From Hyphomicrobiales bacterium (GTDB lineage Bacteria; Pseudomonadota; Alphaproteobacteria; Rhizobiales; Aestuariivirgaceae): a DNA stretch of 14,555 bases. Both the position numbers and the translations under genes were made by a program. The stretch is from the NCBI GenBank assembly GCA_026987255.1, contig JALSNA010000169.1, positions 1 through 14,555 on the forward strand, in the 5' to 3' direction. This document shows positions 2,532 through 8,368 of this stretch, one piece after another (within the stretch, counting starts at the first letter, position 1; the number at the start of each line of letters is the position of its first letter). The notes beneath the pieces were generated by a model. It worked only from the letters and a program-made list of their open reading frames with translations. It searched no databases and was not told the origin of the DNA.

Positions 2532-2560
2532 TTGACCCCATGGGCCTTTGCGTGTAACGC
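2532..2560 (+). promoter_or_regulatory. Candidate sigma-70-like promoter for the cobalamin operon
   Basis: TTGACC at 2532-2537 is a good -35. A weak -10 follows, either TAACGC at 2555-2560 (17-base spacer) or TGTAAC at 2553-2558 (15-base spacer). Transcription would start near 2566-2568, just before the riboswitch-like element. The -10 is poor, so this rests mainly on position. Confidence 0.3.
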
Positions 2561-2570
2561 TCGGGTCATC

Positions 2571-2678
2571 GTGCAGCGTTCCGTTTGAAGGGACTGAAAG
2601 CCATTCCGGTGCGGCCGACCCAAATCGGGGGCCAAGTCCGGATGCTGCCAGATTCGCCCAGAAGCGGATCCTGCCTTG
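2571..2678 (+). promoter_or_regulatory. Cobalamin riboswitch-like aptamer, compact or diverged form
   Basis: The stretch resembles the core of cobalamin riboswitches. GTTCC (2578-2582) can pair with GGGAC (2590-2594), followed by TGAAAG. CCGGTGCGGCC begins at 2606. CCGG 2606-2609 pairs with CCGG 2638-2641, and GGCC 2613-2616 pairs with GGCC 2630-2633 under a small CCC/GGG stem. The 3' side reads CCAAGTCCGG then GCTGCC (2644-2649), as in the conserved P4/P5-J region. A CGC/AGCGG hairpin (2655-2667) matches P6, and CCTGCC (2670-2675) matches the usual 3' end. The canonical CCCCGCAAC, GCCACTG and GGGAAGGC boxes are absent, so the peripheral P7-P9 domain seems missing. It sits directly ahead of B12 biosynthesis genes, the expected place for feedback control. 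No covariance-model score was available. Confidence 0.6.
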
Positions 2679-2701: not shown

Positions 2702-2902
2702 ATGAAAAGCCTTTTTGCTTCCCTCGTCATCCTGTCCGCGAGCGCGGCGGGCGCCCTGGCCCATCCGGGGCATGTGCTCGATGCCGGACAGGGCCATTCC
2801 CACATCAGCGGCTATGCCGCCCTGGGGCTGGCCGCCATCGGCCTTGCCGGTCTGCTGGCGCAGAAAATCGCCAGGCGCCGCCGGGCCCGTCTCCATGGCT
2901 GA
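2702..2902 (+). CDS. Small exported HPGH-motif membrane protein, first gene of the cobalamin operon
   Basis: 66 residues. I chose the ATG at 2702 because a perfect AAGGAGG (2687-2693) lies 8 bases upstream. The longer in-frame form from 2585 would run through the riboswitch-like leader. Residues 1-20 look like a signal peptide ending ALA, so the mature protein would begin His-Pro-Gly-His. Histidines H21, H24, H32 and H34 precede a transmembrane helix (about 37-54) and a basic RRRRAR tail, giving a periplasmic His-containing segment anchored in the inner membrane. It resembles small HPGH proteins found beside B12 genes in alphaproteobacteria (I believe grouped as DUF6732, not verified). Its stop overlaps the cbiX start by 8 bases, implying translational coupling. 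A role in cobalt handling is inference. Confidence 0.75.
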   Translation: MKSLFASLVILSASAAGALAHPGHVLDAGQGHSHISGYAALGLAAIGLAGLLAQKIARRRRARLHG

Positions 2903-3959
2903 AAAAACCGGTCTGATGATCTGTGGCCACGGTTCGCGCGATGCGCGCGCCGTGGCCGAGTTCGCCCGCCTGGCCGCGGACGTGCGCGCCAGGGTGGGCG
3001 ATGTCTGGCCGGTGGAGCATGGCTATCTGGAGTTCGCCACTCCCATCATCCGCAACGGCCTGGACAAGCTGCGCGATCAGGGGTGCTCGCGCATCCTGGC
3101 GGTGCCGGGAATGCTCTTTGCCGCCGGGCACGCCAAGAACGACATCCCCTCGGTGCTCAACCGCTACGGGGCCGAGCATGGCCTGCGCATCGATTATGCG
3201 CGCGAGCTGGGGCTCGATCCGAAGATGCTCAGGGCCGGGGCGGAGCGCATCGGGCAGGCCGAGGCGGGCGCGGCGCGCAAGGTCTCGCGCCATGACACCC
3301 TGCTCATGGTGGTGGGCCGCGGCTCGTCCGATCCGGACGCCAATTCCAATGTCTGCAAGCTCACCCGCATGCTGGCCGAGGGGATGGGCTTCGGCTGGGC
3401 CGAGACGGCCTATTCCGGCGTCACCTTCCCGCTCGTCGCCCCGGCGCTGGAAAGAGCGGTGCGGCTGGGCTTTGCGCGCATCATCGTCTTTCCGTGGTTC
3501 CTGTTCACCGGCATTCTGGTCGAGCGCATTTACGCGGCGGTGGACGAGGCGGCAAGGGCCTTTCCCGAAACCGAGTTCATCAAGGCGCCCTACCTGAACA
3601 ACCATCCGCTGGTGGTGGAGACCTTCATCGAAAGGGCGAAAGGCATCCTTGAGGATGATACGGCCATGAACTGCGGCCTGTGCAAGTATCGCACTCAGAT
3701 CCTGGGCTTCGAATCGCAGCTGGGCGAGCCGCAGATGAGTCACCATCACCACGTGGAGGGAGTCCTGAGGCGCGAAAAAAACACGCATGACGGGCATACT
3801 CATGATCATGGTCATGGACATGACCATGGGGAATCCCATATAGTCGATTCTGAATATGATCACGGTCATCACCATCACCACGGTGGGCATGACCATCACC
3901 ATGCGCCCTACCCCCATGCGGATCACCCGCTCGGCCCGCGCACGCTGAAAAAGGATTGA
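2895..3959 (+). CDS. cbiX: Sirohydrochlorin cobaltochelatase CbiX, long form with 4Fe-4S-type motif and His-rich tail
   Basis: 354 residues. CbiX inserts Co2+ into sirohydrochlorin, the committing step of the cobalt-early B12 route. Two tandem chelatase-like halves occupy about residues 1-125 and 132-255. The first carries GHGSRD (H12) and GMLFAAGH (H79), the usual catalytic histidines. The second has GRGSSDPD in the equivalent place, lacking the first His. A CbiX-typical MNCGLC (MxCxxC, 258-263) follows, known in long CbiX proteins as an iron-sulfur site. The C-terminus then has 24 histidines between residues 283 and 344, likely a metal store. The ATG at 2895 overlaps the preceding small gene. 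There is no clear Shine-Dalgarno site of its own, so coupled translation is likely. The open frame extends upstream to 2715, but that part only shadows the small gene. Confidence 0.95.
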   Translation: MAEKTGLMICGHGSRDARAVAEFARLAADVRARVGDVWPVEHGYLEFATPIIRNGLDKLRDQGCSRILAVPGMLFAAGHAKNDIPSVLNRYGAEHGLRIDYARELGLDPKMLRAGAERIGQAEAGAARKVSRHDTLLMVVGRGSSDPDANSNVCKLTRMLAEGMGFGWAETAYSGVTFPLVAPALERAVRLGFARIIVFPWFLFTGILVERIYAAVDEAARAFPETEFIKAPYLNNHPLVVETFIERAKGILEDDTAMNCGLCKYRTQILGFESQLGEPQMSHHHHVEGVLRREKNTHDGHTHDHGHGHDHGESHIVDSEYDHGHHHHHGGHDHHHAPYPHADHPLGPRTLKKD

Positions 3960-3962
3960 CGG

Positions 3963-4607
3963 ATGCAATTCCTCAACGATCCGGAGGAGATCACCCGGCG
4001 CTCCTTCGAGATCATTGGCAGCGAGGTCGATCTGAGCGCGCTTCCCGAGGATGTGCGGCGCATTGTCGTGCGCATCGTGCATTCTTGCGGCATGACGGCC
4101 ATCGTGGATGCCCTGCGCATCGATCCGGGGCTTTACGAGACGGTGCGCGCGGCGCTGAGCGATGGCCGCCCCATCCTGGTGGACAGCGAAATGACCAGGG
4201 CGGGCATCATCCGCCGCTTTCTGCCGCCTGGCGCACAGGTGATCTGCAAGCTCAATGACGCAGATACCATCGAGACGGCGCAGCGCCTGGGGGTGACGCG
4301 CACCGCCGCCGCGGTGGCCCACTGGCGGCCCCTTCTCAAGGAGGCGGTCTGCGTCATCGGCAATGCCCCAACGGCCCTGTTCACCCTGCTGGAAATGATC
4401 GACAACGGGGCGCCGAAACCTTGTGCCATCATCGCCTTTCCGGTCGGCTTCGTGGGGGCGGCGGAATCCAAGGAGGAGCTGGACAAGAACCCGCGCGGGG
4501 CGCAGATCGCCACCTTGCTGGGCCGGCTGGGCGGAGCCGGGATGGCGGCGGCGGCGCTCAACGCCATTACCTCCATGGCGGCGGAGGCGGGCGCATGGAC
4601 AAGCTAG
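3963..4607 (+). CDS. cbiC: Precorrin-8X / cobalt-precorrin-8 methylmutase (CbiC/CobH)
   Basis: 214 residues, the normal family length. The enzyme moves the C11 methyl group to C12, producing (cobalt-)cobyrinate/hydrogenobyrinate. The family's catalytic-histidine segment RIVHSCGM is present (His40, equivalent to His43 of the well-studied CobH). DSEMTRAGI (about 94-102), CKLND, GNAPTALF and the FPVGFVGAAESKEEL segment near the C-terminus are also characteristic. The start lies 3 bases after the cbiX stop, with AAAAAGGA upstream. The stop overlaps the next gene's start by 13 bases. With CbiX and CbiG in the operon, the natural substrate is probably the cobalt form. Confidence 0.96.
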   Translation: MQFLNDPEEITRRSFEIIGSEVDLSALPEDVRRIVVRIVHSCGMTAIVDALRIDPGLYETVRAALSDGRPILVDSEMTRAGIIRRFLPPGAQVICKLNDADTIETAQRLGVTRTAAAVAHWRPLLKEAVCVIGNAPTALFTLLEMIDNGAPKPCAIIAFPVGFVGAAESKEELDKNPRGAQIATLLGRLGGAGMAAAALNAITSMAAEAGAWTS

Positions 4608-5839
4608 GCAGACCCGCTCCGGTGAGCGTCATCGGCATGGATGACGGCGGCCTGGCCAACCTGGGGATGGCCGCCACGCGGGAGCTTTTCAGCGCCGACG
4701 TGATCTATACCTCACGGCGTCTGGCGGCGCTTTTGCCCGAGCACCTGCAGGAGAACTGCCGGCTTTGGCCCTCGCCCTTTGCCTTGCCCGCAGCCGACAT
4801 CGCGGCGCGGCGCGAGGCGGGCGATTCGGTTGCCGTGCTGCTCAGCGGCAATCCTTTCTGGCATGGCGCGGGGCCGCTGCTGGCCGATGCCATCCCGGCG
4901 GGGGAGATGCAGGTCTATCCGGCGCCTTCCGCCTTTTCCCTCGCCGCGGCGCGCATGGGCTGGGCCTTGCAGGAGGTGGAGACCTTCTCGGCCCATGGCA
5001 GGCCGGTGCAGCGGCTGGAGCTGCACTTGCGGCCAGGGGCCCGCCTGCTCGTGCTCACCCAGAATGAAACCAGCCCGTTGAAAGTTGCGCGTTTGCTGAT
5101 CGAAAGGGGATTCGGGCAAAGCCGCATGAGCATCCTGGCCAATCTTGGCGGGGCGGCGGAGCGGCGCATTCACGCCACGGCGCAGGATGTTGCGCAAATG
5201 GACGAAGAGGATATTCCCCCCCTGCATGTGCTGGCCATCGAGGTCATGGCCGATGACGAGGCCACCATCCTGCCGCTGACGCCGGGACTTGCCGATGATG
5301 CCTTTTTGCATGACGGGCAGATCACCAAGCAGACCATCCGCGCGGTGACGGTCTGCGCGCTGGCCCCGCTGCCGGGGCAGCTCTTGTGGGATGTCGGGGC
5401 GGGCAACGGCACGGTGTGCGTGGAATGGGTGCGGGCCACGCGAGGCCGGGCGCGCGCCATCGCCATAGAACGCGACATGGCCCGCTGCGCGCGCATAACG
5501 GAAAACGCCCGCAGACTGGGGGCGCTGGACATCGAGGTCATAGAAGGATCCGCCCCGGCGGCCCTTGATGGACTGGAGCAACCGGACGCCATTTTCATTG
5601 GTGGAAACGCCGGTTGCGACGACACTTTCAACTTCTGCCTCAAGGCGCTCAAGAGCGGGGGAATCCTGGTGGCCAATGCCGTGACCACCCAGGGCGAGGC
5701 GGCCTTGCATGAGCGCCACCGCAGGCTGGGCGGCGATCTGGTGCGCCTCGATGTCTCCCATGCCGCCCCTCTGGGCGGCGGCAGCGCCATGCGCCCGGCG
5801 CTGCCGGTGACGCAACTGCGGCTGCGCAAGCAGGCCTGA
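4595..5839 (+). CDS. cobL: Precorrin-6Y C5,15-methyltransferase (decarboxylating), CbiE-CbiT fusion (CobL)
   Basis: 414 residues, the size of fused CobL. It methylates C5 and C15 and decarboxylates the C12 acetate chain. Residues 1 to about 205 form the CbiE half, a class III tetrapyrrole methyltransferase with IGMDDGG near the start and LLSGNPFWHG (82-91). Residues about 225-414 form the CbiT half, with HDGQITKQTIRA (239-250), the SAM-binding loop WDVGAGNGTVCVEW (265-278) and AIFIGG (332-337). The ATG at 4595 overlaps the end of cbiC by 13 bases. In the cobalt-early route the same chemistry is done by CbiE plus CbiT, so the fused form alone does not decide the route. A 73-base spacer with two small hairpins follows. 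Confidence 0.96.
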   Translation: MDKLGRPAPVSVIGMDDGGLANLGMAATRELFSADVIYTSRRLAALLPEHLQENCRLWPSPFALPAADIAARREAGDSVAVLLSGNPFWHGAGPLLADAIPAGEMQVYPAPSAFSLAAARMGWALQEVETFSAHGRPVQRLELHLRPGARLLVLTQNETSPLKVARLLIERGFGQSRMSILANLGGAAERRIHATAQDVAQMDEEDIPPLHVLAIEVMADDEATILPLTPGLADDAFLHDGQITKQTIRAVTVCALAPLPGQLLWDVGAGNGTVCVEWVRATRGRARAIAIERDMARCARITENARRLGALDIEVIEGSAPAALDGLEQPDAIFIGGNAGCDDTFNFCLKALKSGGILVANAVTTQGEAALHERHRRLGGDLVRLDVSHAAPLGGGSAMRPALPVTQLRLRKQA

Positions 5840-5912: not shown

Positions 5913-6608
5913 ATGCATGGCACCCTTCATGGCCTGGGGCTGGGCCCTGGCGATCCTGAACTGATCACCCTGAAAAGCTGGCGCATCCTGTCCATGGCCG
6001 AGGTCATCGCCTGGCCACGGGGGCCAAGCGGCGAAAGCCGGGCGCGGGCCACGGCTGCGCCCTTCATCCCCGATGACGTGGTGGAGATGGCCGTGCCCAT
6101 TCCCTTCGGAGAAACGCAAGAGGCGCTCGATGCGGCCTATGACGCGGCCGCGGAGGACATCCGCGCCCACCTGGCGGCGGGGCGCGATGTGGCCTTCATC
6201 TGCATGGGCGATCCGCTGTTCCACGGCAGCTTCATCTATCTGGCCGAACGGCTGCGCGGGGATTTTCCCGTCAAGGCGGTGCCCGGCGTCATGGCCCCAT
6301 CGGCCTGCGCGGCGGCCATCGGGCGGCCCCTGGCCTGCAAACAGGGCGTTTTCAAGGTGCTTCCGGCCACCATGGCGCAGAAGGCCCTGGGCGCCGAACT
6401 GAGCGCAGGAGGCGGGACCATCGCGATCATCAAGGCCGGGCATCATTTGCGCGCCCTGCGCGGGCTGCTCGACGAGGCCGGGCTGCTCGATCGCGCCTAT
6501 GCGGTGGAGAATGCCGGACGGGAGGATGAGCGCATTGCGCCCTTGCGCGATTGCGGCGATGATGCGCCCTATTTTTCCACCGTCATGGTCTTTGGAGAAG
6601 CGGCGTGA
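5913..6608 (+). CDS. cbiL: Precorrin-2 / cobalt-factor II C20-methyltransferase (CbiL/CobI)
   Basis: 231 residues, a usual length. It adds the first peripheral methyl group of the corrin-specific pathway, at C20, using SAM. Class III methyltransferase signatures are GLGLGPGDPELITLKS (7-22), the SAM-contacting MGDPLFHGSF (98-107) and VPGVMA (123-128). An in-frame stop at 5877-5879 with no ATG, GTG or TTG between it and 5913 fixes the start. No good Shine-Dalgarno site is visible, which is odd for an internal operon gene. The stop overlaps the next start as GTGA (6605-6608). Confidence 0.95.
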   Translation: MHGTLHGLGLGPGDPELITLKSWRILSMAEVIAWPRGPSGESRARATAAPFIPDDVVEMAVPIPFGETQEALDAAYDAAAEDIRAHLAAGRDVAFICMGDPLFHGSFIYLAERLRGDFPVKAVPGVMAPSACAAAIGRPLACKQGVFKVLPATMAQKALGAELSAGGGTIAIIKAGHHLRALRGLLDEAGLLDRAYAVENAGREDERIAPLRDCGDDAPYFSTVMVFGEAA

Positions 6609-8368
6609 GCGCCCCTTTGCCCTGCATTATCGCCCTTGGGCCGCAATCGGAAGGGCTGGCGCGGCAGCTGGCCTCGGCCCTGCCGGGCGAGGCGCTCATT
6701 GCGCCCGCCGATCCCGTGGCGGCCATGCGCGAGGTTTTCATGGCCGGCCGGCCGCTCATTGGCCTGTGTGCGTCGGGCATACTCATCCGCGCCCTTTGCG
6801 GCCTGCTGGCGGACAAGCGCGCCGAGCCGCCGGTCATCGCCGTTTCCGCCCACGGAAAGGACATCGTGCCGCTGCTGGGCGGCCATGGCGGGGCCAACGA
6901 GCTGGCGCGGCGCATCGGCTGGATCACCGGCGGGTATGCGGCCATCACCACGGCCACGGACAACCGCTTTCATCTGGCCCTGGACGATCCGCCCAAGGGC
7001 TACCGGCTGGCCAATCCGCAGGACGTGAAGGCTTTCGCCGCCGCCCTGTTGCGCGGCGAGACGGTGCGCCTGGAGGGCCATGCCCCGTGGATTTCCCGCT
7101 CCGGCCTGCCGCTGAAGGCGGATGGCCCCTTGCGCATCACGGTGACGGAAAAGGCCTTGAGCGGCTCACCGGGCCATCTGGTCTACCATCCCGCCACCCT
7201 TTGCCTGGGGGTGGGCCTGGCGCGCGGCGCGGCTGCCGAAGAGGTTGCCGCGCTGGCCGATGGCTGCATGAAAGAGGCAGGCCTGGCCGGTGCCGCGCTG
7301 GCCGCCATGGGCACATTGGACATCAAGGCCGACGAGCCTGCCCTTGCGGCCCTGAGCCGGGAGCTGGGCGTGCCCTTGCGGCTGTTCGATGCGCAAAGGC
7401 TGGCGCAAATTGATGTGCCCAACCCTTCCGAAGTGGTGGCGCGCGAGACCGGCACGCCCTCGGTGGCCGAAGCCGCCGCCCTGGCCCTGGCCGGTGATGG
7501 CGGCAAACTCATCGTCACCAAGACCAAGAGCGCCAATGCCACCTGCGCCATCGCCCTTGCCCCCCGGCCCGTGACGGACCCGCCCGGAGGGCGGCGCGGG
7601 GCGCTTTTCGTGACCGGCCTTGGCCCTGGCGCGCCGGACATGCGCACCCCGCGGGCGGCGCGGGCCCTGATGGAAGCCAGCGACTGGGTGGGCTATGGCC
7701 TCTATCTCGACCTGGCCGGGGATCTTGCCGCCGGCAAGAGGCTGCATCCCTTCCCTTTGGGCAAGGAGCGCGACCGGGTGCGCCATGCCCTGAAGCTGGC
7801 CGAAGAGGGCCGCCAGGTGGCGCTTTTGTGCTCCGGCGATGCGGCCATCTACGCCATGGCCGCGCTGGTCTTCGAGGAACTGGACAAGGCGGCGCAAGAG
7901 GGCGCTTTGGCGCGCTGCGCGGTCGAGGTCATCCCCGGCGTTTCGGCCTTTCAGGCTGCCTCGGCACGGGCCGGGGCGCTCATCGGCCATGATTTCTGCG
8001 CCATTTCGCTCTCCGATCTGCTCACCCCCTGGGAGACCATCGAAAAGCGCCTTGCCGCCGCCGCCGCCGGGGATTTCGTCACCGCCCTTTACAATCCGCG
8101 CAGCAGGCGGCGCACCCGCCAGCTGGAGCGCGCATTGGAGATTTTCCGCGCCCATCGTCCGCCGTCAACTCCGGTCATCATCGCCGCCAACCTGGGCCGG
8201 GAGAATGAAAAGGTGCGCGTCGTGACGCTTGGGCAGAGCGATCCGCGGGAGGTGGACATGCTCTCCATCGTGCTCATCGGCAATGGCGCCTCGCGCATCC
8301 TGGTGCGCGGCGACGGGCAGCTGCAGGCCTGGACGCCGCGCGGCTATGGGCGCAAGGAGGAAGCATGA
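6605..8368 (+). CDS. cbiGH: CbiG-CbiH fusion: cobalt-precorrin-5A hydrolase + (cobalt-)precorrin-3B C17-methyltransferase
   Basis: 587 residues joining two pathway enzymes. Residues 1 to about 325 are a full CbiG, which opens the ring-A lactone and releases acetaldehyde. The N-part has GLCASGILIRAL (53-64), PLLGGHGGANELA (89-101) and ITTATDNR (114-121). The C-part has LGVGLARGAAAEEV (201-214), TPSVAEAA (284-291) and KSANATCAIA (308-317). Residues about 332-587 are CbiH/CobJ, the ring-contracting C17-methyltransferase, with GLGPGAPDMRTPRA (338-351), GYGLYLDL (363-370), CSGDAAIYAMA (409-419), EVIPGVSAFQAA (441-452) and ALYNPRSRRR (494-503). The start is the GTG at 6605, overlapping the cobI stop, with GGAGAAG upstream. 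The stop overlaps cobM as ATGA. Both halves look intact. Confidence 0.95.
   Translation: MSAPLPCIIALGPQSEGLARQLASALPGEALIAPADPVAAMREVFMAGRPLIGLCASGILIRALCGLLADKRAEPPVIAVSAHGKDIVPLLGGHGGANELARRIGWITGGYAAITTATDNRFHLALDDPPKGYRLANPQDVKAFAAALLRGETVRLEGHAPWISRSGLPLKADGPLRITVTEKALSGSPGHLVYHPATLCLGVGLARGAAAEEVAALADGCMKEAGLAGAALAAMGTLDIKADEPALAALSRELGVPLRLFDAQRLAQIDVPNPSEVVARETGTPSVAEAAALALAGDGGKLIVTKTKSANATCAIALAPRPVTDPPGGRRGALFVTGLGPGAPDMRTPRAARALMEASDWVGYGLYLDLAGDLAAGKRLHPFPLGKERDRVRHALKLAEEGRQVALLCSGDAAIYAMAALVFEELDKAAQEGALARCAVEVIPGVSAFQAASARAGALIGHDFCAISLSDLLTPWETIEKRLAAAAAGDFVTALYNPRSRRRTRQLERALEIFRAHRPPSTPVIIAANLGRENEKVRVVTLGQSDPREVDMLSIVLIGNGASRILVRGDGQLQAWTPRGYGRKEEA

Follow-up and report, generated by a model that had tools for sequence, protein, structure and literature searches.

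The window, by which we mean the entire stretch of 14,555 nucleotides analysed from a Hyphomicrobiales bacterium of the family Aestuariivirgaceae, carries on its forward strand a B12 operon with the gene order DUF6732-cbiX-cbiC-cbiET-cbiL-cbiGH-cbiF. The first putative controlled gene (2702–2902) encodes a small DUF6732 protein (Pfam PF20506, E 9.7e-8) and the second (2895–3959) a CbiX-type chelatase; genes for CbiC, CbiE-CbiT, CbiL, CbiG-CbiH and CbiF follow on the same strand, up to 9132. The gene families assigned with Pfam and NCBIfam uphold the position in front of a B12 operon given in an earlier note on this DNA, which had read the segment at 2571–2678 as a compact cobalamin riboswitch lacking P7-P9.

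Several features of the genes themselves can be mentioned here. CbiE-CbiT (4604–5839) and CbiG-CbiH (CobJ; 6605–8368) are fused enzymes, each encoded in a single reading frame. The DUF6732 protein has an HPGH motif and a membrane-like stretch, and similar small ORFs lie at the same place in many relatives; a role for it in cobalt handling is a guess. The translation of cbiX ends in a long histidine-rich tail (window about 3730–3950), which may possibly serve as a metal store. Upstream of the operon and on the same strand lies a cation-efflux (CDF) gene (679–1635), with a patatin-like gene in between.

The operon is preceded by a conserved RNA leader at 2571–2696, a unit of ~125 nt when its expression platform is included. 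For its helices and junctions we use P and J numbers as we take them to be customary; only the terms P3-P6 core and L5-L13 are those of the papers cited below. A three-way junction of 77 nt (2573–2649) comes first and is followed by a hairpin that masks the ribosome site. P1 is closed by GCAGC (2573–2577) and GCTGC (2644–2648). Within it, the P2 hairpin GTTCC/GGGAC (2578–2594, loop 2583–2589) is succeeded by the conserved junction TGAAAGCCAT (2595–2604) and by an arm at 2605–2642 whose counterpart in cobalamin riboswitches is the P4/P5 arm with its L5. This arm consists of an outer stem TCCGG/CCGGA, an internal loop TGC/AAGT and an inner stem GGCC-GA-CCC/GGG-GGCC, arranged as TCCGG (2605–2609), TGC, GGCC-GA-CCC-AAATC-GGG-GGCC, AAGT and CCGGA (2638–2642). 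Column frequencies in the alignments show almost no variation in the junction TGAAAG, in L5 and in the GA-CCC-AA loop. Downstream of P1, the hairpin GATCCT-G-CCTTG / CAAGG-AGGATC (2667–2696) sequesters the Shine-Dalgarno sequence AAGGAGG (2687–2693), and the start codon follows at 2702. When folded with the junction enforced, 2667–2678 faces 2686–2696 and covers the Shine-Dalgarno sequence. A putative alternative partner of 2573–2586 lies at 2662–2674 and overlaps the anti-Shine-Dalgarno strand.

Direct reading of the sequence agrees with the pieces quoted in the earlier note, namely CCGGTGCGGCC...GGCCAAGTCCGG at 2606–2641, GCTGCC at 2644–2649 and CCTGCC at 2670–2675, and with its statement that the CCCCGCAAC, GCCACTG and GGGAAGGC boxes are absent from the leader. 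The frame drawn around these pieces does not hold, as the unit is a three-way junction in which GCAGC at 2573–2577 pairs with GCTGC at 2644–2648. CCTGCC, taken for the end of the aptamer, belongs instead to the anti-Shine-Dalgarno strand 2667–2678, and we reject it as a B12 box. The 'P6-like' CGC/AGCGG hairpin is likewise rejected as a conserved element: among five relatives from the window's own genus it is not kept, and mainly CGGATCCTGCC is retained.

More is missing from the leader than P7-P9. The B12 box AGCCAGGAGACCTGCC and the J6/3 segment GCCACTG are absent from 2571–2701, both by reading and by the lack of an Rfam match, and the CCGCAAC segment (P6) that should come after CTGCC is absent from the window. 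Among the 119 pattern loci listed (see below), CCGCAAC occurs at two: L188, itself full-size, and L170, which looks like a chance match. The P3-P6 four-way junction is gone as well; covariation supports the three-way junction closed by 2573–2577 and 2644–2648, and the P3 strand GGG is replaced. The leader thus lacks P3, P6, J6/3 and the B12 box, a four-way-junction core that classes I and II have in common.

Searches with Rfam gave a concordant result. At gathering score no family matched anywhere in the window, and at E<=10 the only match to 2480–2760 was a chance snoRNA on the opposite strand. No Rfam cobalamin family was found in the loci of 14 relatives at E<=5 or in a further locus (L148) at E<=10, and a strict DNA pattern scan of the genome contigs returned 0 matches. 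The search with Rfam cobalamin models proposed in the earlier note therefore ended in no significant match, the outcome that it had itself set against its reading. Since the binding core is absent and none of the Rfam cobalamin models finds a match even when filters are relaxed, we reject assignment to the canonical or the class-II cobalamin riboswitches.

Is the structure nevertheless conserved? With 2495–2710 as the query, blastn against 60 genomes (the window's own and 59 relatives) found 22 relatives at E<1e-3, including 13 loci from other genera with 78-87% identity over 52-83 bases (L006-L013, L016, L018-L020 and L022). Alignment A1 comprises the window and 19 of the 22 relatives, with L015, L023 and L025 left out. 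With the three-way junction as we specified it, 89.5% of the paired cells of these 20 leaders are complementary, and double-sided changes occur in 7/22 pairs, with 15 double-change cells versus 3.7 (sd 2.0) in shuffles. RNAalifold applied to A1 recovered the arm, and did not recover P1 and P2. A larger alignment, A2, contains 98 matches from 100 chosen sources (95 distinct rows). Here 96.8% of paired cells are complementary and 17/22 pairs show double changes, amounting to 212 such cells versus 50.2 in shuffles; when partners are slid by one column, pairing falls to 53-54%. As A2 was fitted to the model, and many of its rows stem from a pattern that fixes parts of the junction and the arm, independent weight falls on P1, P2 and the lower arm. 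Over the 95 distinct sequences, all five P1 pairs and all five P2 pairs (10/10) show double-sided changes, while the inner CCC/GGG pairs hardly vary and hence carry no covariation evidence. Covariation among homologous leaders, the other check suggested in the earlier note, is accordingly present in both A1 and A2, and a conserved, structured leader with covariation is what a riboswitch-type cis-regulatory RNA would display. Fold stability, by comparison, is rejected as evidence: the leader's stability is ordinary (z -1.00, with 33/200 shuffles folding equally well), and only 34/82 loci have at least 70% of the motif pairs in their minimum-energy fold.

To what known RNA is the leader related? 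Two covariance models were compared, R1 built from the short motif of the relatives and R2 built from 18 of 30 prepared 5' halves of RF00174 elements (29 located with RF00174, and L001 from the window's own genome). R2 matches window 2551–2649 with an E of 1.6e-6, the next best match having an E of 0.058; its selection leaned to members with the arm extension, which favours a match, and the 12 omitted halves mostly had short or unusual arms. At E<=0.01, R2 finds 26/30 motif loci, with L011, L014, L021 and L105 weak or missed. Conversely, the R1 matches are RF00174 elements at gathering score in 14/20 class-level loci and in 10/12 chosen family loci, and the six other class-level loci (L035, L036, L038-L041) look like the motif. 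R1 also recognizes the genome's own RF00174 element with 24.3 bits (E 0.0008). In the R2 alignment the canonical TTAAAAGGGAAC corresponds to the leader's junction TGAAAGCCAT, and the canonical GGGATTAAAAGGGAACACGGTG to GGGACTGAAAGCCATTCCGGTG of the motif. These reciprocal matches bear out the kinship with the cobalamin riboswitch asserted in the earlier note.

Compared with alphaproteobacterial RF00174 elements that have an extended P5 arm, the leader has the same parts in the same order: a hairpin, an A-rich junction, a CGGTG...CCG arm with L5, and (G/A)CTGCC. One RF00174 feature, a P4/P5 arm with L5 and then (G/A)CTGCC, is thereby recognised in the leader: R2 matches it there, and R1 in turn matches RF00174 elements. 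The GACCCAA...GGGG extension is nearly identical in some members, as is the whole arm in the RF00174 loci L037, L270, L271 and L277, and RF00174 regulates cobalamin genes, as the leader probably does. Thereafter the two differ. RF00174 goes on with CCGCAACTG (P6), J6/3, peripheral helices and the B12 box, all of which the leader lacks, and it forms P3 with GGG, whereas in the leader the 5' strand is the partner of (G/A)CTGC. As a separate observation, the extension ACCCA...GGG recurs in the P5 arm of full-size alphaproteobacterial RF00174 elements (L037, L254, L262, L269-L271 and L277); it is an insertion in the Rfam alignment and maybe a subdomain. We take these model matches to demonstrate that the leader and the 5' half of alphaproteobacterial cobalamin riboswitches are related; the simplest reading, which we infer, is that a full-size ancestor lost its remaining parts.

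Other known riboswitches resemble the leader less closely. The cobalt/nickel riboswitch NiCo (czcD) shares a possible link to cobalt genes, but its junction differs from that of the leader, and no Rfam match of the NiCo kind is found here. Class-II cobalamin riboswitches (RF01689; class-IIb of Mycobacterium tuberculosis ppe2) are likewise compact, have no large P6 extension and act on the ribosome site, as described in the relevant passages of PMC11260477. According to the same passages, however, they keep the P3-P6 four-way junction, the B12 box and an L5-L13 kissing loop, while the leader is a three-way junction whose Shine-Dalgarno sequence is covered by a plain hairpin. The sections on architecture in PMC11260477 and PMC8123684 agree that the cobalamin riboswitch classes share a core, the P3-P6 four-way junction; to this PMC11260477 adds the B12 box and the L5-L13 kissing loop.

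These comparisons bear on two ways of keeping the leader within the cobalamin riboswitches. It could be a genuine, strongly reduced class-II-like aptamer, as the earlier note supposed, if sequence further downstream had taken the place of J6/3 and P6 in a form not recognised here. In favour of this, the leader retains L5 and the P4/P5 arm, and in some Devosia leaders GCGAACCTGCC resembles, by eye, the B12-box end GCGA(GCCAGGAG)ACCTGCC. Nevertheless, no Rfam cobalamin family matches even with permissive filters, and past GCTGC nothing in the sequence is conserved between genera except the Shine-Dalgarno pairing, which makes a reduced aptamer very unlikely. It could instead be the decaying remnant of a cobalamin riboswitch with no present function. 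The loss of the binding core and the divergent copies in the window's own genus (L015 and L023, both outside A1) would fit decay; compensatory changes throughout the order, near-invariant bases and the repeated position in front of B12 genes are so contrary to it that we find a functionless remnant hardly credible.

The motif is widespread. At E<=0.01, R1 has matches in 58/69 family genomes and 32/385 class genomes, and at E<=0.001 in 110/297 order genomes, tallies that mix the motif with full-size RF00174 elements (in the family tally, G014, G019 and G027 are among the genomes matched through the full-size element only). Because of this mixing, a cut-off of 52 bits was used for the count, the best R1 score of a confirmed RF00174 element being 50.4 bits (L095). 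Scores above 52 bits occur in 50/69 family genomes and 75/297 order genomes, as counted by hand from the tables on score and not by an Rfam search of each genome. A pattern scan of named genomes found at least 119 loci; the matches listed include Sinorhizobium meliloti, Ensifer adhaerens, Rhizobium herbae, Aestuariivirga, Jiella, Aurantimonas and many Devosia. RF00174 matches are also present in 55/60 genomes (the window's own and its relatives). The window's genome has one strong RF00174 element elsewhere (L001, 1500–1860, 118.4 bits); as a side observation, this element, the only strong one in the genome, precedes by eye a YncE-type beta-propeller-like gene and not a B12 synthesis gene. Judged from the sequence comparisons, the RNA of the earlier note is real and wider-ranging than first stated, but it is other in kind: instead of a small aptamer without P7-P9, it is a relative of the cobalamin riboswitch that has no core.

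Most copies with a classifiable neighbour precede cobalamin genes. Among the 119 pattern loci listed, 66 have an ORF of the CbiX cluster a short way downstream and 41 have one of the CobE/CbiG_C cluster; the clusters were made by single linkage and also hold wrong-frame ORFs, so that these counts are approximate. Viewed by eye, seven of the other 12 listed loci are chance matches and L188 is full-size; in two (L121 and L171) the sequence breaks off within the motif or just past it, and two (L169 and L174) are motif loci outside both clusters. For 32 further loci, also viewed by eye, the neighbour is CbiX-like in 25, HupE-like in 2, CobE-like in 1, CbiC-like in 1 and DUF6732-like only in 1, with L243 and L246 viewed from a misplaced anchor. 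Pfam confirms the S. meliloti gene as CbiG_C and the neighbour of L013 as HupE/UreJ.

In S. meliloti strain Ak57, the motif (R1, 60.3 bits) lies 75 bases before an annotated cobalamin biosynthesis gene, which is followed, as annotated, by cobA, cobyrinate diamide synthase, cobD and cbiB; a divergent TSUP gene adjoins. This operon is presumably the one named cobE-cobA-cobB-cobC-cobD. A locus from the window's family (L093) has a full-size B12 riboswitch, cobN, cobO, the motif and the cbiX operon in that order. In class-level cbiX loci from other orders, the motif is found at 5/29 and RF00174 at 0/20 scanned (L299-L307 lie outside the scan). Mostly neither element is present there. These loci thus lend no support to a swap of one riboswitch for the other in front of cbiX, an idea that we reject for those orders.

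The gene context also bears on the nature of the signal. The leader could be a riboswitch for another ligand, such as Co2+, a metal-free ring intermediate or some other small molecule, that reuses the P4/P5 scaffold after loss of the cobalamin pocket. The binding core is gone while the TGAAAG junction, L5 and the GA-CCC-AA loop remain nearly invariant, which suggests a new pocket; moreover, many copies stand before the chelatase gene cbiX, and L013 stands before HupE. On the other hand, 41 among the 119 pattern loci listed precede the CobE/CbiG_C cluster and not a gene for cobalt insertion or cobalt transport, and the operon of S. meliloti extends to late steps of the pathway. We therefore hold another ligand to be somewhat unlikely, and a purely cobalt-specific signal is rejected, since the cobE operons are hard to reconcile with cobalt as the sole signal. 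A corrinoid appears as the most economical signal from gene context and ancestry, the two grounds left for it once the known cobalamin-binding features are absent.

To evaluate the expression platform, a Shine-Dalgarno sequence and a start codon were assigned by a simple rule to 82 of the 95 distinct rows. Pairing between the Shine-Dalgarno sequence and the linker exceeds that of shuffled linkers (mean z -1.39, with 27/82 at p<0.05; cross-locus z -1.03), while a control with coding segments gives a mean z of 0.07 and 3/82 at p<0.05. For the window alone the same test yields p 0.099, though its 11-bp helix is plain in the fold. Together with the constrained fold, this pairing supports the control at the ribosome site that the earlier note had in mind, and a platform of this type is in keeping with a riboswitch (27/82 vs 3/82). 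As a side observation, one locus (L210, about 6552–6780) has after the motif, by eye, a hairpin and T run like an intrinsic terminator, so that some copies may act on transcription.

The signs of an alternative fold are more modest. In the window the alternative structure has an energy of -51.7 kcal/mol vs -50.8 kcal/mol with the three-way junction enforced. Across loci, a narrow test of the pairing equivalent to 2573–2586/2662–2674 gives 9/94 at p<0.05, and a wider test, designed after the weak narrow one, gives 17/80 at p<0.05, with a mean of -16.0 vs -14.3 kcal/mol for exchanged strands. The alternative strand shows no excess overlap with the anti-Shine-Dalgarno strand (0.42 vs 0.435 expected). 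Furthermore, the fraction of Shine-Dalgarno bases paired is 0.82 with the junction enforced and 0.83 without it. Structure alone may thus hold translation down, as would be the case for a static or protein-bound leader element (a translation repressor site or an mRNA stabiliser) with no small-molecule ligand. The near-invariant unpaired bases in the junction and loops and the kinship with a ligand-binding RNA speak against such an element, and we regard it as unlikely.

In our preferred reading, which we favour by a narrow balance of probability, the leader, a B12 riboswitch relative without the core, acts as an OFF switch that shuts B12 operons when it senses a corrinoid or a similar signal. 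The leader would be a transcribed cis-regulatory RNA derived from the 5' half of a cobalamin riboswitch, from which it keeps a hairpin of the P2 type, a junction rich in A, and the P4/P5 arm complete with L5 and the ACCC...GGG extension, with GCAGC/GCTGC re-closing these parts as a three-way junction. A corrinoid, either the end product or a late pathway intermediate, would stabilise the junction; 2667–2678 would then sequester the Shine-Dalgarno sequence, and translation of the B12 operon would drop. Without the signal, 2573–2586 might pair with 2662–2674 and engage the anti-Shine-Dalgarno strand, leaving the ribosome site open. The proposal builds on observed conservation, covariation, homology, gene context and Shine-Dalgarno pairing. 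A bolder version is a serious possibility that falls short of being probable: an unrecognised riboswitch class of Hyphomicrobiales which discarded more than half of a cobalamin riboswitch, re-closed as a three-way junction and binds not intact cobalamin but a different ligand, be it cobalt, an intermediate of corrinoid synthesis or some further signal. It would govern B12 operons, and in these genomes other operons would be left to full-size B12 riboswitches.

Published surveys, as far as their accessible parts extend, do not describe this element. No paper title or beginning of an abstract pointed to it, the 2017 catalogue of 224 candidate RNAs being covered to the extent that Rfam includes it. 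The portions of PMC2864571 at hand list an AdoCbl-variant (RF01689) and the flg-Rhizobiales, Rhizobiales-1 and Rhizobiales-2 motifs; Rhizobiales-1 has no Rfam number there, and that motif lies outside our comparison with the leader. For S. meliloti, the relevant section of PMC2573895 lists three cobalamin riboswitches, one at cobPW and none at cobE. Term searches of the available text found no cobalamin, cob or cbi in PMC1273637 and no cbiX or hupE in PMC3766115, and the element goes unmentioned in passages of PMC5948670, PMC8123684 and PMC11260477.

Taken together, the comparative record indicates that the RNA is a separate conserved leader of B12 operons in Hyphomicrobiales. If our reading is true, it would offer a seldom-seen view of one riboswitch becoming another, with the ligand core lost and the remainder conserved across an order. 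Sinorhizobium is a genus used in B12 production, and the leader would supply a regulator for its cobE-cobA-cobB-cobC-cobD operon and for cbiX operons elsewhere. As a small unit of ~125 nt with its platform, it would be directly testable in S. meliloti.
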